From contig NZ_MAGO01000004.1 of NCBI RefSeq assembly GCF_001687335.1, positions 150,001-213,334 of the forward strand: DNA of 63,334 nucleotides. The letters are read 5' to 3'. Below, piece after piece: positions 8,573-33,179 of this stretch; the stretch's first letter is position 1; every line of letters begins with the position of its first letter. A program made the translations under genes and the position numbers. The DNA comes from Dissulfuribacter thermophilus. GTDB lineage: Bacteria; Desulfobacterota; Dissulfuribacteria; Dissulfuribacterales; Dissulfuribacteraceae. The notes under the pieces are model-generated. The model saw nothing but the letters and a program-made list of their open reading frames with translations. It ran no database searches and was not told the DNA's origin.

Positions 8573-9108
8573 TAACACTTAATCCCCCTCTCAAAAAGGA
8601 TAGTTTAAAAGGGCTCAAGGCAGGTGAGTGGGTCTCGATAACAGGTGTCTTGTATACAGCCAGAGACCAAACGCACAGAAGGATTGTTGAACTCATGGAG
8701 AAGGGAGAAACCCTTCCCATAGACCTCACTGGGGCGATTCTCTACTATGTTGGCCCCACTCCTACTCCTCCAGACCGAATTTGTGGTGCAGTTGGTCCAA
8801 CTACCAGTTATCGGATGGATGCCTATACCCCAAAGATACTTGAACTTGGAGTTTTGGCCCTAATGGGCAAGGGCAAACGCTCACCACTTACCAAGGAGGC
8901 CCTAAAACAGCACGGAGCCATATACCTCGCCACATTGGGAGGCGCCGGGGCATACTTGTCTGAAAAGGTGAAGGCCATGGAACTTGTGGCATTTGCTGAC
9001 CTTGGTCCTGAGGCCCTCTATAAAATGGAAGTAGAGGATTTTCCCGCAATTGTTATAAATGACTTGGAGGGAAACGATTACTATGAGACTGTGTTGTCAG
9101 GGAAATAG
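8569..9108 (+). CDS. Class I fumarate hydratase, beta subunit
   Basis: C-terminal half of the two-subunit class I fumarase (Fumerase_C family), 179 aa. Family features are LKAGEWVSITGVLYTARDQTHRR-like N-terminus, YYVGPTPTPPDRICGAVGPTT near residue 60, and KHGAIYLATLGGAGAYLS-type segment near residue 115. The start is TTG at 8569, decided by GGAGG at 8557-8561 with 7-base spacing; it overlaps the TGA of alpha (TTGA), giving translational coupling. A strong hairpin terminator follows immediately at 9111. Confidence 0.93.
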   Translation: MITLNPPLKKDSLKGLKAGEWVSITGVLYTARDQTHRRIVELMEKGETLPIDLTGAILYYVGPTPTPPDRICGAVGPTTSYRMDAYTPKILELGVLALMGKGKRSPLTKEALKQHGAIYLATLGGAGAYLSEKVKAMELVAFADLGPEALYKMEVEDFPAIVINDLEGNDYYETVLSGK

Positions 9109-9110
9109 CC

Positions 9111-9153
9111 AATAACCCCAGTCATTTCCTTATGAACTGGGGTTATTTCTTTA
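9111..9153 (+). terminator. Rho-independent terminator after fumarase beta
   Basis: A perfect 12-bp stem (AATAACCCCAGT at 9111-9122, ACTGGGGTTATT at 9136-9147) with a 13-base loop is followed by TCTTT. It begins 2 bases after the fumarase stop. The candidate ATG of the next gene (9132) lies in the loop. Confidence 0.85.
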
Positions 9154-10412
9154 AAAAGTCCAGTCCTCTTTTATTATTTTCTACCTATTATTACTTACAC
9201 CACATAGACAATCTGCCATTAAAAATTATCCAACTGACTCTGATTACCGCTGTTCAAACAATTTTGATTTTAACCTATGTTTACTTTTCCCAGGCATCCA
9301 AGGATTCAAACAGTAGCCTAAAAGAGCTACTATTCTGGTCTTTTACTTTTAGGATATTGTTTGTATTTAATGAACCAGTTCTGTCTGATGATCTTTATCG
9401 ATACATATGGGACGGCTATATCAGCCATCTTGGGTTAAATCCCTATGGCTTTCCACCGGTTCACTTCTTAAACACCGCCCTACCAAATGAGGTGAGAGTA
9501 CTTTTATTTAAAATTAACCACCCGGATCTCATTACAATCTATCCACCTGGAGCCCAATTGATCTTCTTTATTGGTACCATTTTTACAGAGAAGGTTTGGG
9601 GGATAAAACTCTTCTTGATCGCGCTTGACATTTTTCTCATCTACATACTTTCCCTTTCTTTTAAAAAAAATCTTTCTGTCGTTACACTATATGCCTGGAA
9701 CCCCTTGCCAGTCTTAGAGATTGCGTATTCAGGCCACATTGATGGAGCTATGGGCCTTTTTCTTATCTTAGGGCTTCATCTTATTTGTAAAAAATATTTT
9801 TTTCTCTCTGGTCTATGTTTAGGCTCAGCAGTTTCCATTAAAATAATACCTGCAATCTTTTTTCCTGTGTTCTTACTAAAAGCTGAAAGATTCAGAGATA
9901 GGTATTGCTTTTGTCTAGGAACATTGTTGAGTCTGTTATTAACATTTGTCATCTACTTTAATGGTATTGAAAATATGTTCCATACCCTATGGATATACCT
10001 AACTCATTGGGAATTTTCAGGTTTTTTATACAACAAACTCAAACTTATATTCACAAACAGTGTGTCGAGACTGATTTTAGCCATTTTATTTTGCTTGGGA
10101 TATATGATCACCCTCTTTGCAGTTCAAGATTTCAAGCAAAAACTCGCAATAATTTCACTTTTATTTCTTATTACTCAACCAACACTCTATCCATGGTATG
10201 CCTTATCTTTTTTAGCCTTATTGACCTTTGTCCCATGTTATTTGTGCCAATCATTCATATGGGCCCTTGGCCTTTCTTATTGTGTATTAATTCCATATAA
10301 GCTCGCAGGAATATGGATAGAAAATGATACCATCACTTCCCTCATCTTTTTTACTGCCTTCATAAGTCTCATTCACATGGCCCTTTCCATTGCCCCTAGT
10401 CGACAAAATTGA
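9132..10412 (+). CDS. Multi-pass membrane glycosyltransferase, GT87/DUF2029-like
   Basis: The 426-residue protein is almost wholly hydrophobic, with about ten or more membrane segments. The motif DDLYRYIWDGYISHLGLNPY near residue 82 is typical of polyprenyl-phosphate-sugar-dependent membrane glycosyltransferases of the GT-C fold, with the acidic pair as likely catalytic site. The sugar and acceptor are unknown. ATG 9132 falls in the loop of the fumarase terminator and has no ribosome binding site, so the true start may lie downstream or the gene may need its own promoter. The gene is visibly more AT-rich than its neighbours, which may only reflect the membrane protein composition. Confidence 0.75.
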   Translation: MNWGYFFKKSSPLLLFSTYYYLHHIDNLPLKIIQLTLITAVQTILILTYVYFSQASKDSNSSLKELLFWSFTFRILFVFNEPVLSDDLYRYIWDGYISHLGLNPYGFPPVHFLNTALPNEVRVLLFKINHPDLITIYPPGAQLIFFIGTIFTEKVWGIKLFLIALDIFLIYILSLSFKKNLSVVTLYAWNPLPVLEIAYSGHIDGAMGLFLILGLHLICKKYFFLSGLCLGSAVSIKIIPAIFFPVFLLKAERFRDRYCFCLGTLLSLLLTFVIYFNGIENMFHTLWIYLTHWEFSGFLYNKLKLIFTNSVSRLILAILFCLGYMITLFAVQDFKQKLAIISLLFLITQPTLYPWYALSFLALLTFVPCYLCQSFIWALGLSYCVLIPYKLAGIWIENDTITSLIFFTAFISLIHMALSIAPSRQN

Positions 10413-10511
10413 CGACGAATCTATCAGTTGTCGAAATCATCAGATCACAAAAACTCTACAAGCATAGAGATAATATGCTGTTTTTATTGAATATTTTTTT
10501 CAAAACATTTC

Positions 10512-10526
10512 TGGCACAATAATTGA
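10512..10526 (+). promoter_or_regulatory. Candidate sigma-54 promoter
   Basis: TGGCAC at 10512-10517 and TTGAT at 10523-10527 have the fixed spacing of -24/-12 elements, with one departure (TTGA for TTGC). It lies 52 bp before the ATG at 10579. An NtrC-type activator is encoded at 20001, but no link is shown. Confidence 0.4.
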
Positions 10527-10540
10527 TTTTACTTATTTAC

Positions 10541-10554
10541 GAGTTGGCCAACTC
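10541..10554. promoter_or_regulatory. Perfect 14-bp palindrome GAGTTGGCCAACTC in a leader
   Basis: A perfect palindrome between the candidate sigma-54 promoter and the AGGAGG ribosome binding site of the gene at 10579. It could be a dimeric regulator site or a short RNA hairpin. No regulator is identified. Confidence 0.45.
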
Positions 10555-10578
10555 AAAAAACTAAAAGGAGGCATTAAA

Positions 10579-11020
10579 ATGAAGACTATTAAAAAGCTGG
10601 CATCAACCGCACTATTAATGTGTGCACTTATGGGCACTCCTGGAATTTCAATAGCAGGGCATGGTCTTGGACCAGGGAACGGAACAGGCCCTGTTGTTTC
10701 TATCTATGATGGCAGCCCAATTACCGTGTCAGGCGTTGTTACAAATGTTGGGACAATGGGACAGGGACTGAGCATTGACACAGGATCTGGGATTATCACC
10801 GTATATGGCATTGGTCCTATACGCTATTGGAATTCAATTGGCATTACAAGGCACACAGGTTGGGGAGACGGTTCAGATCAATGGATATGAAGTCACCTTT
10901 TCCGATGGAACTACGAAAATTATTGCCACAAGTATTGAGATCGACGGTAATGAAATTCAGCTTAGAGACCCAACAACTGGCTATCCTCTCTGGAGAGGAG
11001 GCATGGGAAGAGTCCGCTAG
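10579..11020 (+). pseudogene. Small secreted glycine-rich protein, interrupted by a frameshift
   Basis: An AGGAGG ribosome binding site and a clear signal peptide (KKLASTALLMCALMG, cleavage after SIAG) start the protein. It reads well to about residue 93 (GPIRYWNSIGITR) and then stops at 10890. The adjacent frame carries an equally protein-like continuation (VGETVQINGYEVTFSDGTTK, ending PLWRGGMGRVR at 11020). Skipping one base near 10855-10858 (AGGCACAC) joins both into about 146 residues. The small beta-rich fold with repeated VxGxV segments resembles an OB-like domain, but I do not recognise the family. It is either a recent mutation, a sequence error or a programmed shift. A second small secreted protein follows. 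Confidence 0.65.
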
Positions 11021-11046
11021 TTTTATGTAAGTTTTGATAACACTCA

Positions 11047-11079
11047 GCACAGCCCTAGACTACCTGAGTGGGGCTGTGC
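11047..11079 (+). other. Intercistronic hairpin before the second small secreted gene
   Basis: GCACAGCCC (11047-11055) pairs with GGGCTGTGC (11071-11079) around a 15-base loop. It is followed by a run of A rather than T, so it is not a plus-strand intrinsic terminator. It may protect or partition the message between the two small genes; a run of ten A/T-rich bases separates it from the ribosome binding site AAAGGAG. Confidence 0.5.
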
Positions 11080-11105
11080 AAAAAAAAATGAAAGGAGCAA
11101 GGATT

Positions 11106-11444
11106 ATGAAAGGAATCAAAATTGGTCTAATTCTAGGAAGCTTGATGATTGCTACTGGAGTGTATGCCGCAAGTGACTACAGCAACTATTCCATTGATGA
11201 ACTAGCAAACATGAGGGGCACCCTTAAAAATGCCACTCAAGAGGAACGAAATGCCTTCAGAGCAGCATGGCAGGAGAAAATTCGTGCTTTAAGTCCTGAA
11301 GAACGCCAGGCCTACACACGAGGTGGACAAGGATCAGGCCCAGGTAGAAGAGGAAGTAGTTACAATGCCGGTGGTGGTAACCATTGGAATGGCTATCATG
11401 ATTCAATGGCTGGTTCCCATGGACGTGGAAGGTGTGGACGCTAG
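11106..11444 (+). CDS. Small periplasmic protein with signal peptide, Gly/Arg/His-rich tail
   Basis: The start ATG 11106 is chosen because AAAGGAG lies just upstream and a signal peptide follows at once (MKGIKIGLILGSLMIATGVYA, cleaved before ASDYS). The mature part has YSIDELANMRGTLKNATQEE and RAAWQEKIRALSPEERQAY, a helical pattern resembling DUF1104 or Spy/CpxP-like small periplasmic proteins. The last 40 residues are low-complexity Gly, Arg, Ser, His and end in GRCGR, which might bind metal or nucleotides. Function unknown; 112 aa. It shares a transcript direction with the frameshifted secreted gene and ends at a strong terminator. Confidence 0.75.
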   Translation: MKGIKIGLILGSLMIATGVYAASDYSNYSIDELANMRGTLKNATQEERNAFRAAWQEKIRALSPEERQAYTRGGQGSGPGRRGSSYNAGGGNHWNGYHDSMAGSHGRGRCGR

Positions 11445-11459
11445 ATGACCATTTATACA

Positions 11460-11500
11460 GTCCCTTCACTCCATTTTAGAGTGAAGGGACCTTCTATTAT
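11460..11500 (+). terminator. Rho-independent terminator
   Basis: A perfect 12-bp stem (GTCCCTTCACTC at 11460-11471, GAGTGAAGGGAC at 11479-11490) with loop CATTTTA is followed by a U-rich tail CTTCTATTATT. It ends the small secreted gene pair and may also act for the convergent cytochrome gene. Confidence 0.85.
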
Positions 11501-11521
11501 TCCAAATTATGTACCAACTAC

Positions 11522-12751
11522 CTAGTCTTCACCATAAGACACCTTCTTGCTGATTGAACGGACCACATCGCATTTACTACCATTGATACAATAGTACACC
11601 TTTACGTCTACTAGGGCCTCTTCAGTCTCTTTGGGAAGGGTGAAGAGGAAGCGCTCATCGCGCTTTTGTAATGGAGGAAGTGTTAAATCTGCCAATTCCT
11701 TGATTTGCCAGGCCCCATAGCGCATACGACCTTCAATATCCAGACCAATCTCAAAATACTCTTTCTTTTCCTGATGTAATACTTTACCAGTTTCAGGATC
11801 TTCAGCGATCACTTCCAGGACCACCTTGCCTGACCAAAGTCAGCCATCTGGCACGCGGTGGCCTGCCTTATTGAACAACGTGGCCTCTACGTTTACAGCT
11901 GGGACCCACTTACCTACCCCATATCTAAAACCAAGGATTTCAGCATGAAGCTTAAGACCTTCTTTCACGATACTTGAATCGTGTCCTCCAGGGAAACGAT
12001 GTCCGCGACCTTTGGCATACATGTGGCATTCCTGACAGGTCTTGCGACCTCCCATGGAGATGTAGTTGTGGTAATAACTCTGTGAAAGGGTATTGCACAT
12101 GATAGACTCTCCATCAGGGGCCACATAAATTCCATGACACTGAGCACAAAAGGCTGCTCTCTTGAGTGTAGGACTGTATTCCGTTGAGTGGGCATCAGAC
12201 TCCACTTCCTGATTGGCTGTATATATAGTATCAGGATCAGGTTCACCAAACCAACTAGGAGCGGCCCTGTAGACAGCGATATTGTGACACCCATAACAAG
12301 TAATATTTAACTTTGAAAGCCTGTTCACTGCCTCTTTGAGTCGAGAATCATCTTTAATCTCCTTAGCCCTTTTAGCCTGTATCATGAGATTGGCAATTTC
12401 CTTAGTTAGACGTTCGGTGGCAAACTTAATCTGGGGAAGATGACAGTCGAGACACTTCATTATTTCGACTCTATCCAACTTTTTCTCCCATTCCTTTGGC
12501 ACTCCTACAGTAAAAAAATTTGAAATCCCCTTGATGGAAGATACCATTGACCGTGCATGATAGGATTCCTGCCACTCCTCAAATATGTCTTCATGACATT
12601 CCATACATTTCTTGGAACTAAAGGTCTCGACAAATTCATCAAAATCGTCGATGAACTTTCCACTAGGCAATTTGAGTTCTTCCTCCGATCCATAGAGAGG
12701 AAAGGCCATAAAAAAGAAAAAAAGGCCCATGAAACATACCAACCTTCTCAT
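11522..12751 (-). CDS. Pentahaem c-type cytochrome with in-frame UGA (probable selenocysteine)
   Basis: ATG 12751 is chosen for its AGGAGG ribosome binding site (12759-12764, spacing 7) and the signal peptide that follows (RRLVCFMGLFFFFMAFPLYG). Five haem motifs follow: CMECH near residue 49, CLDCH, CYGCH, CAQCH and CQECH. At codon 304 (11840-11842) the frame meets TGA inside AGHRVPDG-U-LWSGKVVLEV and continues for 105 well-formed codons to 11522, including a beta-rich domain and CINGSKC. The downstream part has no signal peptide, no ribosome binding site and only a GTG start, so independent expression is unlikely. Read-through would give a 409-residue periplasmic or exported cytochrome. It may relate to the ext-type selenocytochromes of Geobacter, from memory and unverified. 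Alternatives are a nonsense mutation or a sequence error. Confidence 0.75.
11815..11833 (-). promoter_or_regulatory. Weak SECIS-like stem after the UGA at 11840
   Basis: On the minus strand UCAGG and CCUGG pair around the loop CAAGGUGGU, starting six bases after the UGA. The loop contains GGU, as bacterial SECIS loops do, but the UGA-to-loop distance (11 bases) is shorter than the usual 16 or more, and the stem is short. Support is modest. Confidence 0.3.
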
Positions 12752-12778
12752 ACCAGCACCTCCTAAAAAGTCTTGTCG

Positions 12779-12799
12779 TTGCAAAGCATTGCTTGGCAA
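12779..12799. promoter_or_regulatory. 21-bp near-perfect palindrome in the cytochrome 5' region
   Basis: TTGCAAAGCA and TGCTTGGCAA flank a single T, with one mismatch between arms. It lies 15 bp before the cytochrome ribosome binding site and 5 bp from a second palindrome. It is a candidate operator for the divergent XRE regulator or an mRNA leader hairpin. Confidence 0.5.
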
Positions 12800-12803
12800 C
12801 TTG

Positions 12804-12822
12804 ACTACCACTATGTGGTAGT
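12804..12822. promoter_or_regulatory. Palindrome ACTACCAC-TAT-GTGGTAGT, candidate operator
   Basis: Perfect 8-bp arms with a 3-bp spacer. On the plus strand it fills the space between a -35-like TTGACT (12801-12806) and a -10-like TATCTT (12824-12829), 17 bp apart, reading toward the regulator gene. On the minus strand it lies downstream of a perfect -35 TTGACA (12855-12860) reading toward the cytochrome. This placement suits repression of both. Confidence 0.55.
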
Positions 12823-12942
12823 ATATCTTATCGCTTATATTAGCGTTAATATATTGTCAACTATTTTTTTATTGCATTCAATTTTATTTTTTAATCAATT
12901 CAAACTTCATAATAACAATCTTTTTCATTAGGGATATAACTC

Positions 12943-13344
12943 ATGAATAAGAAAGAATTTGTGAAAGCAAGGAAGATCCTTGGCAAAACCCAAAAACAAA
13001 TGGCTGAACTCTTGGGGACCTCTTTAAAAACAGTGTCGAGCTATGAACAGGGCTGGAGATCAATACCTCCTTATATTGAGCGTCAGATCTATTTCCTCCT
13101 TTCCAGAAGGGCAGGTATCTGTGAGATTATGCGTCCTTGCTGGGAATTAAAAAAATGCCCTGATGAGATCAAAAACATCTGTCCAGCCTGGGAATTTAAC
13201 GCTGGAAAGCTTTGTTGGTTCATAAATGGTACATTTTGTAAGTCTTGTTCAAAAAAAAGCTGGGAAGAGAAAATAAAACTATGCAAACAGTGTAGCGTTT
13301 TTACACCTATTGTAAAAATGATTGAATATAAACAAACTACTTAA
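12943..13344 (+). CDS. XRE-family regulator with C-terminal two-CW cysteine domain
   Basis: Residues 1-60 are a helix-turn-helix of the XRE type (KARKILGKTQKQMAELLGTS, KTVSSYEQGWRSIPPYIE). Residues 60-125 carry eleven cysteines, including the pattern CWELKKC and CPAWEFNAGKLCW, then FCKSC and CKQC, which is the two-CW arrangement and may bind zinc or a redox cofactor. It would be a cytoplasmic DNA-binding sensor of 133 aa. It diverges from the pentahaem selenocytochrome, and the shared 191-bp region carries two palindromes, so regulation of that cytochrome is the simplest inference. Ligand unknown. No typical ribosome binding site (ATTAGGG) precedes the ATG beyond a weak AGGG. Confidence 0.85.
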   Translation: MNKKEFVKARKILGKTQKQMAELLGTSLKTVSSYEQGWRSIPPYIERQIYFLLSRRAGICEIMRPCWELKKCPDEIKNICPAWEFNAGKLCWFINGTFCKSCSKKSWEEKIKLCKQCSVFTPIVKMIEYKQTT

Positions 13345-13356
13345 AAATATTGAAAA

Positions 13357-13429
13357 ACAGTCCCATTTAGCCACGGTAAGCACGGATCTTGCCACTCCAT
13401 TACTCAATACCATAGCCAAATGGAACTGT
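13357..13429. repeat. 73-bp imperfect inverted repeat
   Basis: ACAGTCCCATTTAGCC (13357-13372) matches the complement of AGCCAAATGGAACTGT (13414-13429) at 13 of 16 positions. The intervening 41 bp contain a smaller GGTAAG/CTTGCC stem. It lies between convergent genes and could be a terminator-like structure or a small dispersed palindromic element. No second copy was seen here. Confidence 0.45.
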
Positions 13430-13504
13430 CGTATGAAATGCTATTTCTTATCTTAGGATTGGCATTCGCATGGGATATTTTGATTTAATACTTTGACATT
13501 ATTA

Positions 13505-14639
13505 TTATTCCCCAGGGACTGAGGCCTTTAAAAAGGCCTCTATAAAACCATCTAAATTTCCATCAAGTACGTCTTTTACATTTCCCACCTCGTAATCCGT
13601 CCGATGATCCTTTATGAGTTGGTATGGCTGGAGCACATAGCTCCTTATCTGGCTTCCCCAGGCAATCTCTTTTTTCTCACTATGGAGCTTTTGTTTTTCT
13701 TCTTCACGCTTTTTTAATTCCCTCTCATATAGCCTTGCCTTTAATATCTTCATGGCTATAGCCCTATTTTTGTGCTGAGAACGCTCATTCTGGCACTGGA
13801 CTACGATTCCCGTAGGTATGTGAGTGATCCTTACTGCAGAGCTGGTCTTATTGACGTGTTGTCCCCCAGCACCACTTGCTCTGTATGTGTCAATGCGGAG
13901 ATCCTTCTCATTTATTTCAACATTAATAGTCTCATCCACCTCCGGGGCAACAAATACAGAGGCAAAGGATGTATGACGTCTCCCAGAGGCATCAAAAGGA
14001 GAAATACGCACAAGCCTGTGCACTCCGGCCTCTGCTTTCAAGTACCCGTATGCATAAGGTCCCTGTACGAGAAAAGTGGCTCCCTTTATGCCGGCTTCTT
14101 CCCCAGGCATAATGTCCAACATTTCCACTTCAAATCCCCTTCTCTCTGCCCAACGGAGATACATTCTGAGGAGCATGTCTGCCCAATCTTGAGCCTCTGT
14201 GCCCCCAGCACCAGCATGTATGGTGACCACCGCATTATTCTTGTCATGAGGACCTGACAGGAGTCTTTCGAGCTCTGCCTTGGCCACTTCCTTTTCGAGT
14301 TCTTCTCCAAGGCGTATGGCTTCTTTTAAGGTCTCGAGATCCTCCTCCTCTTCAGCCATATCGAGTAGTAGCTCAAGTTCCTCCAGTTTTTCTTTGAGAT
14401 CCTCTACTCTCTCCTTTTTTTCCATCAACATAGAGCGTTCCTGTAGAATCTCCTTGGACTCTTTAGAGTCCCAAAAGTCTGGAGAGAGCATTGCCTTTTC
14501 AATCTCTTCCAAGCGAGCTGTCACTTTGAGGTCATCAAAGATACCCCCTTAGATTATCTATTCGTCCACTAATATTGCGGATTCGAGAACGAATTTCCTG
14601 GGCCTCCAAGGAGGCCTCTTTAAAAGTCTTTGCTTCCAT
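13505..14639 (-). CDS. prfB: Peptide chain release factor 2 with programmed +1 frameshift
   Basis: RF2 releases peptides at UAA and UGA. The first frame starts at ATG 14639 (AGGAGA ribosome binding site, spacing 7; [18 protein letters not shown]) and runs into a TGA at 14535-14537. The site reads AGG GGG TAT CTT TGA, the classical shift signal with its internal Shine-Dalgarno-like AGGGGG. A +1 slip at CTT continues as [16 protein letters not shown], giving about 377 residues. The SPF anticodon-recognition motif is in [12 protein letters not shown] and the catalytic GGQ is in [15 protein letters not shown]. It lies 96 bp after lnt. The shift autoregulates RF2 level through UGA. Confidence 0.97.
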
Positions 14640-14735
14640 GCTCAATCTCCTTAGAAGAATCGATATTACCAATAAATTTGGTTGATTTCGAAAAGTCTGG
14701 AGTAAACGGCCAAGGTGTTGATGTGCCGTCACCCA

Positions 14736-16271
14736 TTAAAGGGTAAGTCCTTGCCTGCATGCTGTAAATGGCAGCACCGGCACACATAATAGCAGCACGA
14801 AAAGGAAAAATCCATAGTCCCCATACCTGACATATGGGCTCTTGTCCGTCAAAAGTCCTACTTTGGCCGTGATCACTGCAGGGACAAAAATTTCAGTGGT
14901 CTCTATACGCGTCCCATCTGGAGCGATTATGGAACTGACCCCTGTATTGGCGGAACGTATAACCCATCTTCTGGTCTCAACTGCCCTGAATACGCTCATG
15001 GCCTCATGCTGATATGGCGCAGGGGTCCTTCCAAACCATGCATCATTGGTCATCACAGCAAGAATATTAGCACCATGATTTACAGCATCCCGAGCAAGCC
15101 CTGGGAATATACTCTCAAAACATATAAGGATTCCCACAGTCAGACCATCTGTTGCCCGTATAGCAGCACCACGCACTCCAGTATCAAAATCACCAGCAGT
15201 AGGAAGATAGTGTTTTGCTAGCTCACTAAAGGGTCCTAGAGGCATATATTCGCCAAAAGGTACCAGGTGTCTTTTATCGTATCTTCCAAGCAAATCTCCA
15301 TTTGGGCCAATGAGATAAGCACTGTTAAAATATTGAGGTCTTGATCCTGGTGTTGAAAATTCATACGAAAGAGACCCAAACAAGAGAAATACCCCATTTT
15401 CCCTGGAAAATTCCTGCAATCTCTCCTGTACCACCGAATCGTCTTGATAATATGTAGTGACTGCAGTCTCTGGCCAAACAACAAGTCTGGTTTTGTTGTC
15501 ACAGTCCCTCTCAAAACAGCCCTCTTTCGTCAGGGAAAAATATTTGTTGAGAGTCTCCTCCATGACCCCTGGATCCCATTTTATGCTTTGGGGAACCGCT
15601 CCCTGCACAGCCACAGCACAAATATCAGGAGGGACGTCATATTCGTTCATCTTCACCTTTCCATAATAAACTGCTCCTAGGAACACGGTCCAAAAGCCAA
15701 GAAACAAGTAAAGGGATTCTTTCCAGCTTTTATTTCTCAAATGGATAATAAAACCCCATATCAAAAGGACGCTCAAAAAAAGGAGCGAGCTAATACCATA
15801 GATGCTCAGTAAATCTGCTAATTGTATTAACAGTGGAAAATCGTGAAGACTTGAGGCCAAAACCCCCCAGGGGAAACCTGTAAATAGAGTTCCACGCATC
15901 CACTCAGTAAGCCCCCACAGCCCTCCTCCTAGAGTAGCCAAAACTATGCGTGGTGTCTTTTTTAAAAAATACGTGTAAACACACGCCCATAATGCTGGGT
16001 AGAGCGAAAGATAGAGCGCAAGAAGGGCAACTACAGGAAAAGTTAAAGGGAGGGGGAGCCTTCCGTACTGGTTAATGGTTGGGGCCAACCACCAAAGTAA
16101 TAGAAAAAAATGCGACATACCAAAGGAAAAACCAGTGTAAAATCCCTGCCTTGGCCCCTTATCCTCTAGAGCATACAAAAAGAGGAGAAGGCCCAAGAAT
16201 AAACACGGCAGACAACCATAGCCCGGAAGGCCCAGGGTATAAAAAAGACCACCGAAAAGGGCAAAAAACAT
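14736..16271 (-). CDS. lnt: Apolipoprotein N-acyltransferase
   Basis: Adds the third acyl chain to lipoproteins in the inner membrane, a prerequisite for Lol sorting in Gram-negative cells. The 511-residue protein has about six N-terminal membrane segments, a nitrilase-like periplasmic domain (about 215-470) and a final membrane segment. Catalytic Glu, Lys and Cys are recognisable in VVWPETAV, YDKRHLVPFGEYMPL and ILICFESIFPG. TNDAWFGRTPAPYQHEAM and RSANTGVSSII are further family motifs. Substrates in this window would include the 12-haem lipoprotein at 32249. It precedes prfB and follows the HsdR-N gene on the same strand. Confidence 0.96.
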   Translation of the reverse strand: MFFALFGGLFYTLGLPGYGCLPCLFLGLLLFLYALEDKGPRQGFYTGFSFGMSHFFLLLWWLAPTINQYGRLPLPLTFPVVALLALYLSLYPALWACVYTYFLKKTPRIVLATLGGGLWGLTEWMRGTLFTGFPWGVLASSLHDFPLLIQLADLLSIYGISSLLFLSVLLIWGFIIHLRNKSWKESLYLFLGFWTVFLGAVYYGKVKMNEYDVPPDICAVAVQGAVPQSIKWDPGVMEETLNKYFSLTKEGCFERDCDNKTRLVVWPETAVTTYYQDDSVVQERLQEFSRENGVFLLFGSLSYEFSTPGSRPQYFNSAYLIGPNGDLLGRYDKRHLVPFGEYMPLGPFSELAKHYLPTAGDFDTGVRGAAIRATDGLTVGILICFESIFPGLARDAVNHGANILAVMTNDAWFGRTPAPYQHEAMSVFRAVETRRWVIRSANTGVSSIIAPDGTRIETTEIFVPAVITAKVGLLTDKSPYVRYGDYGFFLFVLLLCVPVLPFTACRQGLTL

Positions 16272-17670: not shown

Positions 17671-18545
17671 AAGAGGCCATCTCAATATTTTTTTTTATTT
17701 TTTGGGCGATAATGGCCTTCTTTTTTTATAAGATACCAGTCTGCCTTGGCACTCAGGGCCCAACTATTACGGTGATTGTATCTTCAGAGATCCGCCCTTA
17801 TAAAGAAGCCCTTGGAGGCCTAAAGTCATCTCTAACTTTTCCGATTCAAGAGTACAACTATCGCTCAAATCCCAAACTTGTGGAACATGTCTTAAAGAGT
17901 GAATCCTCTGATTTTGTTGTGGCAATAGGCCCTGAGGCCGCTAAGGCAGCCAGAGCCTCATCCCCATTACCTCCTCACAAGAAACTGTACCTTATGGTAC
18001 TGGACCCAAAGAGTCTACTTAAACAACAAAAAATTTGTGGAGTAGATCTTAGGATCCCTGTGGAAAGGCAACTTGATGCAATATCGAAGAGGTTTCCACC
18101 GCCTGTTCGAATCGGAATTCTTTACAATGCTCTGGAAAATCAAAAGATCATCGATGAGTTTGTAAAAAAGGCAGAGTGGTTCAACGCCACGGTTACAGGG
18201 ATCCAGGTCAACACTCCAAAAGACTGTCCTGGGGCATTGATAAAAAACAGAAAAAATATAGACATACTCCTCTTCATACCAGACACCATAGTCATCAAAG
18301 AGGCCTTAGTTCAGTATCTCATAAAAGAAAGTATTTTCAGAGGCATCGCTGTTGTGGGTTACAACCACTTTTTTATAGAAAATGGCGCTGTTATGAGTCT
18401 CAGCATAGATTACGAAGAGGTTGGTAAACTTGGAGCCAATCTTTTAAAGCAGATATGGGATGGAGGCAAATGTAGTCTACTTCCTCCCCCATTTAAACTG
18501 GAGTGGAATCAAAGGGCATGGGATACCGTAAGGCAAAGGCGATAA
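17667..18545 (+). CDS. Periplasmic ABC-type substrate-binding protein (ABC_sub_bind family)
   Basis: The PF04392-like fold is indicated by TVIVSSEIRPYKEALGGL, VVAIGPEAAKAA, RIGILYNAL and GAVMSLSIDYEEVGKLGA. A hydrophobic N-terminus (ISIFFFIFWAIMAFFFY) would export it. The GTG at 17667, overlapping the trmJ stop, is preferred over TTG 17631; a GGAGG lies 14 bases before it, which is far. No ABC permease or ATPase adjoins it. Instead a histidine kinase, an NtrC-type regulator and a TonB receptor follow, so it may act as a periplasmic sensor partner rather than as a transporter component. The ligand is unknown. Confidence 0.75.
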   Translation: MKEAISIFFFIFWAIMAFFFYKIPVCLGTQGPTITVIVSSEIRPYKEALGGLKSSLTFPIQEYNYRSNPKLVEHVLKSESSDFVVAIGPEAAKAARASSPLPPHKKLYLMVLDPKSLLKQQKICGVDLRIPVERQLDAISKRFPPPVRIGILYNALENQKIIDEFVKKAEWFNATVTGIQVNTPKDCPGALIKNRKNIDILLFIPDTIVIKEALVQYLIKESIFRGIAVVGYNHFFIENGAVMSLSIDYEEVGKLGANLLKQIWDGGKCSLLPPPFKLEWNQRAWDTVRQRR

Positions 18546-19981
18546 GGAATCTGAGTCTCGGTAAAAGGCTGGCTCTTAGTATTGTGGCGCTCATAAGCGT
18601 GGCCACACTTCTTTTAGGTCTGTATGGCTCACGCCTTACAGAAAGGTTTATGAACGAGCGTTTTGAAGATAGGATGGCCTTTTTGGCAAGATATCTTGCA
18701 CTAAATTCAGAGCTTGGAATCCTCATCGGTGATCACAGGATGTTGGAAAAGCTTGCCAAAAATCTTTTGTCTGAAAAAGACGTCAAGGGGGTGGAGGTAA
18801 GAGATTCAAAGGGCCAAATCCTGGTGTCAGTGGGAGAAACAAAAAACCAAGGCTTAAATGAAACTGTATACCCAGTGATCCTGAGGCAGGAAGAAGAAGA
18901 ACTAGTATTCAGTAAAAATGAAAGGCTTAGAGAGACAAAGATCGGATCGATCCACCTATTTTATTCTGCGGAAAGTATAGAAGAGGTAGTGAAAGACTTT
19001 AAAGCAAAGACCCTCATAGCAGCTCTTTTCCTTTTGATAACCAGCGCTTTTATAGCGATCCTAATCTCCAGGGCATTGACATCTCCCTTAAAATCTCTTG
19101 CTGAGGCTGCCAGAGAAGTTGCAAAAGGGAGCCTAGACATTCGAGTCAAAGGTGGAACACTCCCCGAGACCAGAGAACTGGCCATGGCCTTTAATAACAT
19201 GTTAACTGCCCTTGAAGAGAGCAGACACACCCTCGAGGCTACATACCAAGAGATGATTCAGCAAAAGGCCCTGGCAGAGGTGGGCGAATTTGCATTCACT
19301 GTTGCCCATGAAATAAAAAATCCCTTGGGGATAATACAGGGGGCCTTAGATATCATACAAAAGCCTGAAGCAGGGGAAGATACAAAAAAGACAATGATTG
19401 AATACCTCAAAGAGGAACTCATACGTTTAAATAGAATTATCCAAGACTTCTTAGAATTTTCCAGGCCTAGAGAACCAAAACTATCAAGTCAGAATCTAGG
19501 AGATCTCATAGACTCTATAGTGAAAAAAGCTATAGTTGAGTGGGAGCCTAAGGGGGTTGAAATAAAATTTCAAAATACAACCCACGACATCTATGGACGA
19601 GTGGACGCAGATCTTCTAAACCAGGCCCTCTTAAATCTGATAAAGAACGCCTGCGAAGCTTGCGAAAAAGATATTTCACCGTGTGTGATAATCACTGCTG
19701 AATTAAAAGGTAAATTTTATGAAATCAGTATTGAAGATAATGGTCCTGGCATACCAGAAGATATCAAAGACAAGATCTTTGAGCCTTTCTTTACCACAAA
19801 AGCCAAGGGAACTGGCCTCGGACTGGCATTGGTAAAACGTGTAATAGAACTGCACGGTGGTTCAATTATAATCTCTGGCAAAGAAGGCCTTGGCACCATC
19901 GTTACTTTGAGGCTTCCCATCACCCAAACCCAATTGGGTGACTCAGGTGCCAGCCAGACATATATAATAGCAGGGGCATAG
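18518..19981 (+). CDS. Sensor histidine kinase with periplasmic domain and HAMP
   Basis: Membrane kinase of about 487 aa. A first membrane segment (ALSIVALISVATLLLGLYG), a periplasmic region of about 130 residues, and a second segment (TLIAALFLLITSAFIAILI) lead into HAMP (LTSPLKSLAEAAREVAKG). The phospho-acceptor is in FTVAHEIKNPLGIIQGAL. The ATPase boxes are NLIKNACEACE, EDNGPGIPE, FEPFFTTKAKGTGLGLALV. GTG 18503 is an alternative start; ATG 18518 is preferred, weakly. It overlaps the binding-protein gene by 28 bp, so they are co-translated, and the response regulator follows 19 bp later. Confidence 0.95.
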   Translation: MGYRKAKAIRNLSLGKRLALSIVALISVATLLLGLYGSRLTERFMNERFEDRMAFLARYLALNSELGILIGDHRMLEKLAKNLLSEKDVKGVEVRDSKGQILVSVGETKNQGLNETVYPVILRQEEEELVFSKNERLRETKIGSIHLFYSAESIEEVVKDFKAKTLIAALFLLITSAFIAILISRALTSPLKSLAEAAREVAKGSLDIRVKGGTLPETRELAMAFNNMLTALEESRHTLEATYQEMIQQKALAEVGEFAFTVAHEIKNPLGIIQGALDIIQKPEAGEDTKKTMIEYLKEELIRLNRIIQDFLEFSRPREPKLSSQNLGDLIDSIVKKAIVEWEPKGVEIKFQNTTHDIYGRVDADLLNQALLNLIKNACEACEKDISPCVIITAELKGKFYEISIEDNGPGIPEDIKDKIFEPFFTTKAKGTGLGLALVKRVIELHGGSIIISGKEGLGTIVTLRLPITQTQLGDSGASQTYIIAGA

Positions 19982-20000
19982 AGTAGGAGGGTAATGACCT

Positions 20001-21353
20001 ATGGCATACATCCTCGTAGTTGATGACGAATCAAAGATGCGACACATCCTGAGAATAATGCTTGAACTCAAGGGCCACAAGGTAAAAGAGGCCAGTAATG
20101 GTAGTATTGCCCTTAAACTCATTAAGGAAGAGCCATTCGATCTGGTGATATCCGACATAAAAATGCCCGAGCTCGACGGATTCGGCCTACTCGACGAACT
20201 CAAACGACTAGACCAGGGCCCACCAGTGGTCTTCATCACCGCCTTTGCCACCATTGATTCCGCAGTAGAGGCCATGAAAAGAGGGGCGGTCGACTATATT
20301 ACCAAGCCATTTGAAGAAGAACGCATACATCTTACCATAGAGAAGGCCCTAGGGATCTCAAAAATAATGGAGGAGAACCGTGAACTCAAGCGACAGCTCG
20401 ATGACGTTGCAGGGCCTAAAGATATTATATACGCCTCCCCTGCCATGAAAAAAGTGATAAAGATGGCAGAGCGAGTTGCAATAAAAGGCGATACTACCGT
20501 CCTTATTCTGGGGGAATCCGGGGTTGGAAAAGAAGTGATGGCTCACTACATCCACAAGATGAGTCCAAGGGCCCAAGGGAAATTCGTTCCTGTAAATTGC
20601 GCTGCTATAAATCAGGGCCTTGTTGAAAGTACTCTTTTCGGCCATGAACGCGGGGCCTTCACCGGGGCTGATAGGAGAAAAAAGGGCCTTTTTGAATATG
20701 CTCAAGGGGGAACACTCTTTTTGGATGAAATAGGAGATCTTCCCTTTGAGGCCCAGGCAAAACTTTTAAGGGCCCTTCAAGAAAAAGCGATTCAAAGAGT
20801 TGGCGGAAATGACGTTATAAAAATTGACGTGAGGGTATTGTGTGCAACCAATCAAAATCTTGAGGCCTTAGTAAAGAAAAACAAATTTCGACAGGATTTA
20901 TTCTATAGGATAAATGTATTCCCTATAGAAATTCCGCCTCTAAGATCTCGTACCGAAGATATCATTCCTCTTGCAAAACATTTTGTAAAAAAGGCCATGG
21001 GGAGGGATATTGACGGTCCAATTTTTACTCAGGGAGCAGAGAGGGTCTTATTGGAACACTCGTGGCCAGGAAATGTTAGAGAACTGGCCAATGCTATGGA
21101 ACGAGCTGTGATCATGGCGAGCTCAACTCCCATAACAGTAGAGCATTTGTCATTTTTAAAACCGAATAAGGCCACAGGCTCTTTAAAGGACTTTAAACTT
21201 CCTCCAGAAGGAATAAACCTTGAAGAGTTTGAAAAAGATATTATTCGACAGGCCTTGGAGATTGCAGACAATAATCAGAGCAAGGCCGCAAGACTCCTTG
21301 GTTTAACCAGATCCAAATTCAGGACAAGGGTGAAACAGCTCGAAAATGACTAA
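20001..21353 (+). CDS. NtrC-type sigma-54-dependent response regulator
   Basis: The 450-residue protein has a receiver domain (residues 1-118; VVDDESKMRH, phospho-acceptor in DLVISDIKMPELDGFG, Lys in DYITKPFEEE). It is followed by a AAA+ domain (about 140-375; Walker A GESGVGKE, sigma-54 contact loop GERGAFTGADRRKKG-type segment at ERGAFTGADR, Walker B GGTLFLDEIGDLP). A Fis-type HTH ends it (NNQSKAARLLGLTRSKFR). An AGGAGG lies 10 bases before the ATG. It is the partner of the upstream kinase. Targets are unknown; the downstream TonB receptor and the sigma-54-like site at 10512 are candidates. Confidence 0.96.
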   Translation: MAYILVVDDESKMRHILRIMLELKGHKVKEASNGSIALKLIKEEPFDLVISDIKMPELDGFGLLDELKRLDQGPPVVFITAFATIDSAVEAMKRGAVDYITKPFEEERIHLTIEKALGISKIMEENRELKRQLDDVAGPKDIIYASPAMKKVIKMAERVAIKGDTTVLILGESGVGKEVMAHYIHKMSPRAQGKFVPVNCAAINQGLVESTLFGHERGAFTGADRRKKGLFEYAQGGTLFLDEIGDLPFEAQAKLLRALQEKAIQRVGGNDVIKIDVRVLCATNQNLEALVKKNKFRQDLFYRINVFPIEIPPLRSRTEDIIPLAKHFVKKAMGRDIDGPIFTQGAERVLLEHSWPGNVRELANAMERAVIMASSTPITVEHLSFLKPNKATGSLKDFKLPPEGINLEEFEKDIIRQALEIADNNQSKAARLLGLTRSKFRTRVKQLEND

Positions 21354-23412
21354 TATGAAACAGGGCATTTCCATAACATTTGTCATCAATTTTATAATGA
21401 TCTTGGTCCATGTCTTTGGAGTTGATAATTCTTTAGCCAATGACAGGACAGAATTGGTCTTTGTCGGAGAAGACATCGATGTCATCACCATTGCCTCAAA
21501 AAGGGCAGAATCTGTCAAATCTGCTCCTGCAATTGCATCTGTAGAGACTGAGAATAGACTTAAAACTCTCGGCATCCAGACCCTTGGAGAAGCCCTTAGA
21601 CTCCACTCAGGCTTTTTCACCACAAAACGTGAATGGGGGACCCAACCCTTTCTTAGGGGGATTGAAGAGGGAATTCTGTTTCTATACGATTCCGTGCCTC
21701 TAACCTCAGACGCCACCAAAACCATTCATCCATTAGATGAAGACCTCAGTCTCTTTTTTGTAAAAAGGCTGGAACTCATTAAAGGACCTGGGTCTGTCAT
21801 ATGGGGCCCAGACGCATTTGCAGGCATTGTAAATGTAGTACCCAAGAGGGGAAGAGATGTAGAGGGCGTAGATGCCCAGATTGTCACAGGTGTCCCCTTT
21901 GGAAAGGCCCAGGTAGATTTCCTTTGGGGGAAAAACAAAGGTCTATGGGAGGCGCTGATTGGATTAAGTGCATCTGTTACCAGACCAAATAACAGGGATT
22001 TTACGATTGTACGATTCAGGGAGGCAGGTGACTCAAATCCAGTCCCTCCTGAACAGCGTATTGGCAAAAGCAATATAGACGACTCCAAAAATGTGGAGCT
22101 TATTTTCAATTTTACTTGGAAAGATTGGCTTAGCCTCTCTGGCAGATGGTCTGAGATGGAAAAAAACTACGTATTGAGCCAGACCAATAACGACCTTAGC
22201 TGGAACGGTCAGAGGAAAAGCCCATTTCGATTCCTAAAATTCGAGGCAAAACATCCATTGACCAACGGCTTCACATTGACAGTGAATGGATACGTCAACG
22301 AATTGAAATTTCATCAAAAGGAGATTGACATCTCATGGGAACAAACCAGTAGAGTGTATTATGGTGAAGTGCTATTTGAAAGGGAATTTTCCAAACACCT
22401 TGGTCTGATAACCCTAGGGGCAGGCATCAGGAAAAATTTCATCACTGGTGCTGTCATTGGCAAGAGCTTTATACCGGACTTTCTCCAGCCTGAAAATGAG
22501 CTATTCATACCAAAAATCGATCAGGAAGATTTCAATACCTCTTTAAAGAGTCTTTTTGTTCAAGTAAGACGTCACTGGTCCAAGATAGATGCATGGGCAG
22601 GACTCAGAGTAGACGATCACAATCAGTATAATATCACTTGGTCTCACAACATCGGTCTTTCATACCACCCTTCTTTCTCCTGGTACATGAAATTCCTGTA
22701 TGGCACAGCATTTAGGACCCCCTACAACCAGCAATTGCTTGGAAGAACAGAACTTGACCCAGAATCTGTGAACAATGTCTCCATAAACTTCCATCTGAGC
22801 CCAATGACAATTGGGCAAAGTGACCATACACAATTTGAAGGGGACCTGACCCTTTTTTGGAATAGGCTTCGCCATCATGTTAAGGAAGACCCTTATGCTG
22901 GTCTTTCAAATGCAGGTCATGGCGATATCTGGGGAATTGAGATTGGGATGAATCTCAAACCTTCATCTTGGTTCAAATTGTGGACAAACGCCACCTTGCA
23001 ACACTATACAGGAGATGACGATGCCTTTAAGGTACTAGACTTTGTATTTATTAGATCAGATGGTACTCAGATCCCCCACTACACTCGATGGAATAGCCCC
23101 TTTGAAAAAGGACCAGATGTCATGACCCGGTTGGGCATTACCATAGTACCAAAAGACGGAGTTGAACTTTCAACAGTATTGTCATATGACGGTCCATGGT
23201 GGGTCACCTATGACAAAGGAAAACTCAGGACTAAGATTGAAGATAAAACCACCGTGGATGTCACCCTCCATACAAAAGGACTGATCCCGCATTCAGATGC
23301 CTACATTGCAATCAAGAATCTCTTAGATGAAAGAAATGACGTGCCAGGGATATATAGCACCTATAGATCCCCTGGCATAACTGTATTCCTGGGCCTTGAA
23401 ACAAGGTTTTAG
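21346..23412 (+). CDS. TonB-dependent outer-membrane receptor
   Basis: Energy-coupled outer-membrane importer of 688 aa. A signal peptide (ISITFVINFIMILVHVFGVD) is followed by a TonB-box-like DVITIASKRAE, then the plug domain (TLGEALRLHSGFFTTKRE, VKRLELIKGPGSVIWGP, GIVNVVPKRG) and a beta-barrel ending in TVFLGLETRF, with the terminal phenylalanine typical of Bam substrates. Overlap by 8 bp with the regulator gene shows that it belongs to the same operon. Ligand unknown; the regulatory neighbours suggest induction by the substrate. Confidence 0.94.
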   Translation: MTNMKQGISITFVINFIMILVHVFGVDNSLANDRTELVFVGEDIDVITIASKRAESVKSAPAIASVETENRLKTLGIQTLGEALRLHSGFFTTKREWGTQPFLRGIEEGILFLYDSVPLTSDATKTIHPLDEDLSLFFVKRLELIKGPGSVIWGPDAFAGIVNVVPKRGRDVEGVDAQIVTGVPFGKAQVDFLWGKNKGLWEALIGLSASVTRPNNRDFTIVRFREAGDSNPVPPEQRIGKSNIDDSKNVELIFNFTWKDWLSLSGRWSEMEKNYVLSQTNNDLSWNGQRKSPFRFLKFEAKHPLTNGFTLTVNGYVNELKFHQKEIDISWEQTSRVYYGEVLFEREFSKHLGLITLGAGIRKNFITGAVIGKSFIPDFLQPENELFIPKIDQEDFNTSLKSLFVQVRRHWSKIDAWAGLRVDDHNQYNITWSHNIGLSYHPSFSWYMKFLYGTAFRTPYNQQLLGRTELDPESVNNVSINFHLSPMTIGQSDHTQFEGDLTLFWNRLRHHVKEDPYAGLSNAGHGDIWGIEIGMNLKPSSWFKLWTNATLQHYTGDDDAFKVLDFVFIRSDGTQIPHYTRWNSPFEKGPDVMTRLGITIVPKDGVELSTVLSYDGPWWVTYDKGKLRTKIEDKTTVDVTLHTKGLIPHSDAYIAIKNLLDERNDVPGIYSTYRSPGITVFLGLETRF

Positions 23413-28050: not shown

Positions 28051-31000
28051 CTAGCGGAGAAATGCACCCCACAATTTTTCAAACAATGGACTTCCGCCTT
28101 CGCTTCCCCTTTCTGCTGCAACATATTCACCTGGCTCATTGATCTTAACCCACACATATGCGCCTACATGGGAAAGTACTTCGGCACCTTCTGCAGGCCT
28201 GAAGGCATAATCTCCATGAGACTTGACGTATACCTCAGGGTCAGCACCCTGGAATGGTAACTTAACAAACATAGTCTCATGGCCTTCACCTTCAACTCCG
28301 ACCTTCAGTATGTATCCTTCTACAAAGCCCTTTCCAGCAACATACACGAATTCCTTTGCTGGCTGGAACCCAAGCTCTGTTATCTCAGGCCTGATCTCCT
28401 CTGGCACGTAGAAGTAGTGCTTATCAGACCAAGGACCATTCACCACCTGTTTGAGATAGGTCTTGTTCAACTCCTCTTCAGTTAACTTGGCACCTAGCTC
28501 AGCAGCAATCTCTGCCCCTGTAATATGGCCTTCAGCAGTCATGTAGAATAACTCTTCAGCATGGTGCCTGCTGTGAGCCAATATTTCATCCTGTCTTGCA
28601 CCGAGGATGCTGAGGCCATTTGCCTCGAATTTATCAATGTAGATAACCTCTCCATCCACTACGAAGAATGGATCTGGGCCTTTTCCAGCTAAGAAGTCAG
28701 CCATAGCAGGAGTCGGCACCATGCCGGTCTTTCTCATATACTCTGCAAGACCCTCTTTTGTCTTAGCTGCCTCTGGATCAAAGGTAAGGGCCCTGTTCTT
28801 CTCCTCAAACCATGGTGGTGCCCATGGCAAGAAGCCTACGATCCTATCGGTGATACGATGTGCACCAGGATCCTTTGTGTAATCGCCGTGGCAATCGAAA
28901 CAGGACTGTGCCCCGAGTGCCTTCTCTGCAGGCTGTACTCCATGGCTGTCAGAGAAGTAATGAGCAGCTATAAAGAGCATGGGCATTGGATTGGACTCGC
29001 CTTCAGCCTTTAACACCTTTACCAAGGCCTCCTGCATTGCCCTTACGTCTTCTTCCCACCAGAGCTCAGGGAAGCCATCGCCTGTGTGGTCGAAGATCAC
29101 ATAGCCAGAATCCTTGAGCACTACCTTACCTACATTTGGATCCTGTGCCCATGTAGGATCATTGGGTGGAATGTCTCTAAGCTGGTCTGGTGTATAGACG
29201 TAGAATGTCGCTGCAGGCAGGAACTTGTCTATAGCAGCGTTGATCTCTCTTAGATACAAGACCTTGGTTCCACCATATGCAAGAGGATTATCAGCTAGGG
29301 CGCTCATTCCTCCCTCTGGATACGGATTGGCATCGACCCAGGTAAGAATGGTTATCGGGTTACCAATCACAATCTGAGGATATCCATTCTTGGAATTTGC
29401 CCAATACAGAGGCGGATAGACCTCATTGTCATGGGCTGGATCATAGGTTATTGGCACTCCAAGGGATTTTTGCTTTTCAAGCATGATCTGATAGAAGCTC
29501 TTCCAGAAATCGAACTTGGGATTGGTCATGAGACCATTCACGAGCTGGCCTGGATCGGCCTCGCTGCTCATCCAGAAATAATCCACCATCTGTGACATGA
29601 AATCCATTGGCTGAATGCCATTACCATCAGCATCGATGTGCTGTGCCAGCATATGGAAGTGCGGGATCCCGTAGCCTGGTGAAGTTCCATATACCGGTGA
29701 AAGAGCATAGTATGGAGGAAATGCCATGGCTGGGAAGTTGGAAAGACCGCCCATCAAGGTGTAATAGCCGAATCTGTTATCGAAGTTTGAATAATAACCA
29801 AGGGTGTCGTCAAAGGCCCTGAAACGCCAGGTACGTTTATATGGAATATGACATGTTTCACATGCGATCTCGGCTATGTGCTTACCAGCCACTTCCCCGA
29901 ATTTTTCTTCATGCTTTCTGGTGGGATTAGGCGCATCTGGATCCTGTCCGCTTAGATGGCAGCCTTCGCATGTCCTTGGCTTTGGATTGTTGTCAAGGTC
30001 ATTTCTCACCATATGGGCAGTGTCTGTCCCCTTGAGGAAGTTGTGCTTTGCTTCAACGTCACCCGTATATCTCAGATGGCATGAACCACAGCCCATCTTC
30101 TTCCCTGACATGTGGACGTCATAGCCTGAGGCTTCTGGATCATCTGTGAAGTTTACATATTGACCATTCTTGACCCAGTCAGCTGGCATTCCAAGGGCAT
30201 AAAGTCTTGCTCTGGTCCACTCAGAGTTGCCATGGTCCTTTGTCATCACATGGCACTGGCCACAGACCTTGACCCATTTCCATGAATCGACATCATCGGA
30301 ACCGCCAAACATTTCAATGTCGAGAGCTCCGTCGTCACCAAGGTCGGCCACGTTGTAATATGACTTTGCCTCCCACTCATCTCCATTCTTCACGATCTGC
30401 ACATAGCTGAGTGGCATGCCGTCATTATTGAGATCTAGACCCATTAGCTGTGCAGTGGGCATCATGTAGAAGAAGCTTGGCAAGAAATCATGCCTTGCAG
30501 CCATATTCTTTAAGGTATCGTATGGGATAATCCCATTTTCCCAATCAGCTATGACTTTGGTGAGATTGATTCCAAAGAATGCCTTGGGATCGAAGTATGT
30601 CATGTCCCCCTGCATAATCAGGCCGTAGGCATACTGAAATGCAGCCCAGCCCAAGCCTACGAGACCGCTATACTGAATTCCCTGACCCTCTACAAGTGGG
30701 GCGCGGACGAAATCTCTCACAGACGCATTTGGGTCGTCCCAATCAGTATAGATCTTACCAGGCTCATAGGAACGAAGTGGGAAAGGAATTGGTAGGAGTT
30801 GCCCAGTTCCTGGATCTCTAATTTCATAGCCGTACACGAATGAATTAAAGAACATTGCATTTAGATCATCCATGGTGGCCTCAGCTGGCATTAGGCCATT
30901 TTGCTTCATATAGTCCAGGATTTGGGCAAAAATAGCCCCAATGGCCTCCTGATTTGCCATTAACTTGGCCATCTCATCTGCACCACCGTTTGGATTGTAG

Positions 31001-32166
31001 GTGTATGCATCCTTTATTCCATTTTGGGTATAGATGTGAGGAGTAATACTTGGTGGTCCGTATAGTGCATAGGGTAGTGATTCCCCAGAGGGATCAATAG
31101 CCTTTAATCCGTCTGTCCAGATCCTGAAGAGCTCTCCTACATGGTCTTTTGGTAACATGCTAAGCTTGAAGAACTTGCTGCCTATTGGGCGAGTCATGCG
31201 CTGAATGTCATTGGTGTAGGAAAGGGCGCTTTCATTCAATACGCCTTCCTTAAGTGGCATTCCAAGGGAAATCTTAACCACCTCTCCATTTTGGCGTTCA
31301 GCAAAGATCATGAGCCTTGGCCTGAAGGGCTGCACCTTAAGGCCATCTGCTGCCTCATAAACAAATGGATTTGATTCAAGGTCTGGATCAATATGGCAGA
31401 GAAGACAGTCTGCCTCCATGACCCCACTCTTTGACCAGTCATGGCGCTTTGGATCGCCGTGATCAGCAACTGTCTCTTGAATAGACTTTCCGCTAATCAG
31501 AGACTGTGTCGTAGCATTGGGGCCATAGGTGTAGAAATCTCTATCGTAAGAGTGTGAAAGTGTGGCTTCAGCCTCTGGGCTGTCGTAAGGGGCCACAGTC
31601 CCATCAGACTTTACAATTCCTTCTGCTGGACCGCCGCCTGGGTGACAGCTGTAGCATGTCCCCAACTGATCTGCCACGCCCTGATCAAAGAAAAATGGCT
31701 TGCCCTCAGTTGAGAAAGGATTGTCCAAGGTACCTCTTTCCCTCTTAGCCGCCAACTGGCGGTAAGAGGGGGGTCACCATGCACCAAACTGTCCAGAACT
31801 CAGAAGGTGACCGTAGGCATTTGCCAGATATTTATAAAGAGTTCCGTCATTGTGTTCATCGCTCCAATGATCACTCAAATTTTCACCATTTGGTCCTGCT
31901 CCCTCTCTAAAATGGTATGCACGGGTTATGGCATCATAATCATGACACCTACCACATGTCTTTTTTGGGCTATATGCAGGTCCCCTCATATAAACCGACC
32001 CGTTTGCCGCCCGAATTACATCGTTTGGGTCTAATTGGTCCTTAATCGGGTTGCCATTTCTGTCCAACAAGGTCACAGCAGGATGTGCCATGACCATATG
32101 TGGGGCCACTACTAGAAGTAGAGCTACAAAGGACACAATACAACTTCGTAGGACATTGGTTCTCAT
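28051..32166 (-). CDS. Large octahaem c-type cytochrome with in-frame UGA (probable selenocysteine)
   Basis: From ATG 32166 a signal peptide (CIVSFVALLLVVAPHMVMA) and one haem site (CGRCH) are read up to a TGA at codon 131 (31774-31776), in GQFGAW-U-PPSYRQLAAK. The same frame then continues for 1240 codons with seven more haem sites (CYSCH, CLLCH, CGQCH, CGSCH, CEGCH, CETCH, CFDCH). The downstream part has only a TTG start and no signal peptide, yet c-type haem is attached outside the cytoplasm, so the haem sites make sense only with read-through. A SECIS-like hairpin directly follows the TGA. The 1371-residue product would be periplasmic or on the cell surface, the terminal partner of the upstream 12-haem lipoprotein and porin. 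Its electron acceptor or substrate is unknown. A haem-proximal Sec might be a ligand or redox group. Nonsense mutation is the alternative. Confidence 0.85.
31740..31773 (-). promoter_or_regulatory. Bacterial SECIS-like stem-loop after the UGA at 31774
   Basis: Read on the minus strand: three C after the UGA, then CCCUCUUA-CCGCC, loop AGUU, GGCGG, a bulged C, UAAGAGGG. That is 13 base pairs with one bulge. The loop begins 16 bases after the UGA and has a G as its second base, both within the known geometry of bacterial SECIS elements recognised by SelB. In a coding region such a stem is not otherwise expected. Confidence 0.8.
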
Positions 32167-33166: not shown

Positions 33167-33179
33167 GACCCGCACCCCT

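Follow-up and report, generated by a model that had tools for sequence, protein, structure and literature searches.

The gene on the minus strand at positions 11522-12751 of the stretch analysed here (the window: 63,334 nt of Dissulfuribacter thermophilus contig NZ_MAGO01000004.1, contig positions 150,001 to 213,334) encodes a pentahaem c-type cytochrome of the ExtKL/MccSep family, in which an in-frame UGA is almost certainly read as selenocysteine (Sec). Sec had been proposed at this codon in a sequence-only reading of the DNA, and the proposal is now supported by a family model that spans the codon, Cys as the alternative residue in homologues, the Sec machinery of the genome, a conserved SECIS hairpin and a homologous Sec protein of solved structure. 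The cytochrome belongs to an already known selenoprotein family, ExtKL, and its novelty is low; what is mildly new is that the gene is solitary, lies outside any ext cluster and comes from a less described clade, with LWS(G)KVV after the Sec.

The reading frame continues through the UGA

The frame opens with an ATG (12751-12749), reaches the in-frame TGA at 11842-11840 and runs for 105 further codons to a TAG (11524-11522). All five CXXCH motifs precede the Sec codon (Table 1). For comparison we collected the stop-to-stop frames of the whole window that have at least 150 codons and end in TGA, 25 in number. The 105 codons of the cytochrome were the longest readthrough among them, followed by 104 codons at 59759 that are not cytochrome-like and look like chance, so that readthrough length alone is not decisive for Sec. 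Where frame length could not make the case, conservation across the TGA did. Identity to relatives is about equal 5' and 3' of the TGA, and 3' of it the closest relatives give, in the same frame, a pN of about 0.26-0.29 and a pS of 0.6-0.8, a substitution pattern that shows purifying selection continuing past the codon. Together with the single domain predicted across the site (see below), these results uphold the earlier description of the 105 codons as credible protein, and the accompanying statement that the downstream frame has no ribosome binding site and no signal peptide also held, since neither was read ahead of it.

Table 1. Features of the cytochrome gene and its surroundings (positions in the window).
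Feature	Position	Strand	Basis or remark
ExtKL/MccSep-family pentahaem c-type cytochrome CDS, complete, 409 aa with Sec304	11522..12751	-	frame, NCBIfam and PDB matches, homologue alignment
Shine-Dalgarno AGGAGG	12759..12764	-	7 nt 5' of ATG, read directly from sequence
CXXCH haem motif 1 (C49-H53)	12593..12607	-	
CXXCH haem motif 2 (C100-H104)	12440..12454	-	
CXXCH haem motif 3 (C152-H156)	12284..12298	-	
CXXCH haem motif 4 (C202-H206)	12134..12148	-	
CXXCH haem motif 5 (C239-H243)	12023..12037	-	
Cys219, invariant, not part of haem motifs	12095..12097	-	
His298, invariant, in GHR(V/I)PDG-U loop; likely distal haem ligand	11858..11860	-	
UGA codon, selenocysteine 304	11840..11842	-	frame, homologue column, PDB alignment
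SECIS hairpin, stem GUGGUC/GAUCGC, loop CUGGAAGU (apical GGA), start 15 nt past UGA	11805..11824	-	comparative pairing
Inverted repeat, 12 bp perfect, terminator-like on + strand	11460..11490	+	between cytochrome gene and convergent gene ending at 11444

The residue at the UGA column

A sample of 297 genomes of the phylum contained 30 with a match above the cut-off of the NCBIfam model NF040886; these matches and neighbouring hits made up a first alignment of 41 rows. In 33 of the 41 a UGA stands in one and the same column; Cys occupies it in three rows, and Val or Ile in two paralogues, of which the Val one is represented by two overlapping loci. A second alignment of 90 rows, mostly from named genomes, has in this column UGA in 71, Cys in 15 (two of these rows being one gene) and Ile in one. 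The sequence-only reading had proposed alignment over the HRVPDGxLW segment, to see whether Cys stands at the Sec position, and Cys is indeed the main alternative residue in both alignments. Homologues ending at the stop, or a variety of unrelated residues opposite it, would have spoken against Sec; the homologues run past the position, and where they align with it they have Sec or Cys, two odd paralogues excepted. The Cys homologues are one uninterrupted protein through the UGA position, and at several points of an IQ-TREE tree Cys genes branch from within Sec clades.

Among ExtKL paralogues, one copy has Cys at the Sec position and others have Val or Ile (PDS-V-SSN, PDS-I-SSN). The latter are possibly non-catalytic copies, and their existence indicates that the scaffold can be maintained with no redox residue at this position.

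A conserved hairpin follows the UGA

The weak 5-bp stem first pointed out after the UGA (11833-11815; alignment columns 10-14/24-28) proved to be the wrong hairpin: 46% of its cells are paired, no better than in shuffles. The conserved hairpin, GUGGUC-CUGGAAGU-GAUCGC, lies further downstream, at 11824-11805. In 29 UGA genes, 91.4% of the cells of its six pairs are paired, three of the six have changed in both partners, and its covariation score was reached by none of 500 shuffles. When the partner strand was slid by 1-3 columns, pairing dropped to 25-67%, and RNAalifold unaided recovered five of the six pairs. All six are intact in 46 of 71 Sec genes, against 6.5 expected from random synonymous codons for the same amino acids, and, counted from the UGA, codons +5 to +11 form the peak of synonymous conservation among 347 seven-codon windows along the gene. 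In the Cys homologues the hairpin is mostly degraded, with 2-6 of the six pairs kept, usually 3-5.

The bSECIS model describes an apical loop of 3-9 nt with a G in its first two positions, 16-37 nt past the UGA, on a stem of 4-16 bp, with a free energy of -7.5 kcal/mol or below (PMC13188914). Here a GGA loop lies 23 nt past the UGA on a 9-bp stem with one bulged U, within the ranges of the model for loop, stem and spacing. Folded alone, the hairpin gives -6.5 (22 nt) or -7.0 (30 nt) kcal/mol, slightly short of the threshold, and 60 nt give -15.6; of six close and distant relatives given the same folding, five lie at -8.2 to -10.8 kcal/mol. Folding of the single sequence at the site was uninformative (z about 0 to -1), so that only comparison revealed the conserved hairpin. 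An Rfam search at the site gave no meaningful match.

Family identity and solved homologues

The read-through protein scores 443.6 bits (cut-off 250) against NF040886, "multiheme c-type cytochrome (seleno)protein ExtKL", and the match spans the UGA (residues 5-403; positions 4-419 of the 423 of the profile). A search of PDB sequences matched the "Multiheme cytochrome c selenoprotein (MccSep)" (9wt8, 9wta, 9wtb) and its U325A mutant (9wt9, 9wtc); 9wt8 and 9wt9 align over residues 21-378 with E about 1e-48, and position 325, X in 9wt8 and A in 9wt9, falls exactly opposite residue 304. MccSep thus gives a multihaem cytochrome with Sec whose structure is solved, in which a single chain runs through the site and Sec325 takes the column of Sec304. 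It is, however, a distant homologue and carries a PTPNR-type motif after its Sec. Sequence search alone found it; MccSep was absent among the matches listed from a Foldseek library reaching to April 2026, and no paper on MccSep turned up in the literature library searched.

In Geobacter, GSU2937 and GSU2936 were first proposed to form a selenoprotein in 2007 (PMC1914089) and GSU2937-2936 was later described as ExtKL (PMC5877670, PMC6148476); the family is now among the listed prokaryotic selenoproteins (PMC13188914). G. sulfurreducens ExtKL has, like the D. thermophilus protein, five haems and, at the corresponding place in its C-terminal region, Sec after PDG. It differs in that the D. thermophilus gene stands alone, outside an extHIJKLMNOPQS cluster, and falls in a separate clade, with LWSGKVV in place of PTPNR after the Sec. 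A link to the Geobacter ext cluster, raised in the sequence-only reading, was correct as to the family and not as to the cluster.

Predicted structure

AlphaFold2, run with 59 sequences, gave a model with a pLDDT of 90.3 in which a single domain is predicted across the UGA site and residue 304 is flanked by strands on either side. A mostly helical five-haem N-terminal domain is followed from about residue 266 by a C-terminal beta-sandwich, and Sec304 lies in the loop that joins strand 283-294 to strand 309-317. Among the Foldseek matches listed, the best solved fold was the pentahaem cytochrome c552 of Thermochromatium tepidum (5ze8; Z 22.7, rmsd 3.2, 304 residues, range 42-404). The match is continuous across the Sec site, although identity is 21%, and to our knowledge this cytochrome is not known as a selenoprotein.

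Outside the haem motifs, His188, His251, His298 and Cys219 are invariant in the homologue alignment and His65 is 92% conserved; His188 aligned less cleanly in a second comparison that included paralogues. The conserved His residues are putative distal haem ligands, and one of the five haems may have no conserved distal His. If His298 is such a ligand, Sec304 would sit beside a haem. Cys219 was considered as a partner of Sec304, but the paralogues that have Val or Ile in place of the Sec retain this Cys as well, which weakens the idea.

Selenocysteine machinery and other readings of the UGA

The D. thermophilus genome encodes selA (578.8 bits), selB (366.8 bits) and selD (381.0 bits) and has a tRNA-Sec with UCA anticodon. 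The selD gene (contig 10) itself contains an in-frame UGA, in the context VKASG-U-AAKIG, so that SelD is probably a selenoprotein too. A second SelB (285 bits), encoded on contig 11 (about 18380-23257), directly adjoins a tRNA that scores as tRNA-Sec (58.8 bits) and has a GCA (Cys) anticodon. The two resemble the selC*/SelB* pair of related groups; selC* tRNA-Cys is known in Thermodesulfobacteria, and elsewhere the anticodon of some members is UCA (PMC7609411).

In the original Geobacter annotation, with extK and extL as separate genes (PMC6148476), the UGA is a true stop. The D. thermophilus cytochrome would then end at Gly303 with a separate small gene after it, for which a frame of 100 codons opening with GTG is available. 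That frame, however, is the one without Shine-Dalgarno sequence or signal peptide, and a protein ended at the UGA would keep two strands of the beta-sandwich, cut off after the second in the AlphaFold2 model. Purifying selection extends past the codon, the Cys homologues are uninterrupted and the solved homologue is a single chain across the site, all of which makes a true stop highly improbable. We give similarly little credence to a route in which the second SelB and its selC*-like tRNA-Cys insert Cys at the UGA. A tRNA-Cys of tRNA-Sec shape does stand beside a SelB in this genome, some selC* tRNAs elsewhere carry UCA, and homologues do have Cys at the site; but the anticodon here is GCA, which makes this tRNA an unlikely reader of UGA, a true tRNA-Sec(UCA) is present with selA and selD, and MccSep, whose structure is solved, is described as a selenoprotein. 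TGA is also one base from both TGT and TGC, and a Cys codon could have mutated in a pseudogene or been misread in sequencing. Dozens of independent genomes from different phyla, however, share this TGA and the hairpin downstream of it, which makes an error or decay at this codon vanishingly improbable.

In the Sec reading, which we hold to be near certain, the ribosome decodes the UGA by means of tRNA-Sec(UCA), SelA, SelD and SelB, the last recruited by the conserved hairpin. The product is a periplasmic pentahaem c-type cytochrome that presents Sec304 in the GHRVPDG-U loop between two strands of the beta-sandwich. Sec304 could serve as the redox or catalytic residue, supplied with electrons by the haem chain, a role to which we would give about an even chance. 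The acceptor reduced by the enzyme might be a small molecule of the periplasm. One candidate, taken from work on Geobacter, is selenite: ExtKL has been proposed there to act in its reduction (PMC5877670). With a solved homologue, the role of Sec in a multihaem cytochrome is directly testable.

Genomic setting and clades

None of the ext-like neighbours (extH rhodanese, extI porin, extM, extN) was found at window positions 9000-15000, and the LW-type loci compared have no widely conserved neighbours; the gene is thus a member of the protein family and not of the ext cluster. A divergently oriented gene for an HTH protein with a two-CW domain (12943-13344, plus strand) adjoins it and is not kept beside its relatives. 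In the tree a well-supported "PDG-U-LWS(G)KVV" clade stands apart from the classical "PDG-U-PTPNR" clade. The LW clade holds the D. thermophilus gene together with genes of Thermodesulfatator, Nitrospirota, Desulfobulbaceae and Candidatus Electrothrix. Solitary LWS(G)KVV genes occur in Thermodesulfobacteriota, including cable bacteria, and in Nitrospirota, and some organisms carry both types, Thermodesulfatator autotrophicus among them. It is conceivable, though we lean slightly against it, that these genes encode a selenoenzyme distinct from its paralogue ExtKL, one that catalyses its own reaction and does so independently of an outer-membrane ext conduit.

The ExtKL family extends well beyond Geobacter as a solitary gene, cable bacteria included. 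Small pentahaem cytochromes (sPHC) of cable bacteria have been reported as structural homologues of ExtKL outside an ext context, one of them with an extKL-like two-gene structure (PMC11976967). The word selenocysteine is absent from that paper, so that a split gene has been reported in cable bacteria with no mention of Sec. The Candidatus Electrothrix gene of the LW clade has both the UGA and the hairpin, and our data suggest that the two-gene sPHC case may likewise be a Sec gene.

A companion UGA cytochrome

The sequence-only reading had set this gene beside a stronger UGA case at 31774, and that UGA, too, is conserved in homologues. The companion gene (window 28051-32166, minus strand; UGA 31774-31776) encodes a multihaem cytochrome of ~1371 aa with the context GAW-U-PPSYRQ. 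Within the phylum, about ten homologues at 84-56% identity share the UGA, which is followed by a strong conserved hairpin (CCGCCAGUUGGCGG). Searched against NCBIfam, the protein reached no cut-off, so that it may represent an uncatalogued family of Sec cytochromes; the best match was TIGR04315 (45.8 bits against a cut-off of 375), which is listed as a GenBank-annotated Sec family (PMC13188914). Just upstream of the 31774 cytochrome, at 32249-34586 on the minus strand, lie genes for a multihaem cytochrome with a weak QrcA-like match and for a putative outer-membrane beta-barrel of 468 aa without a family match, which are possibly a porin-cytochrome conduit.
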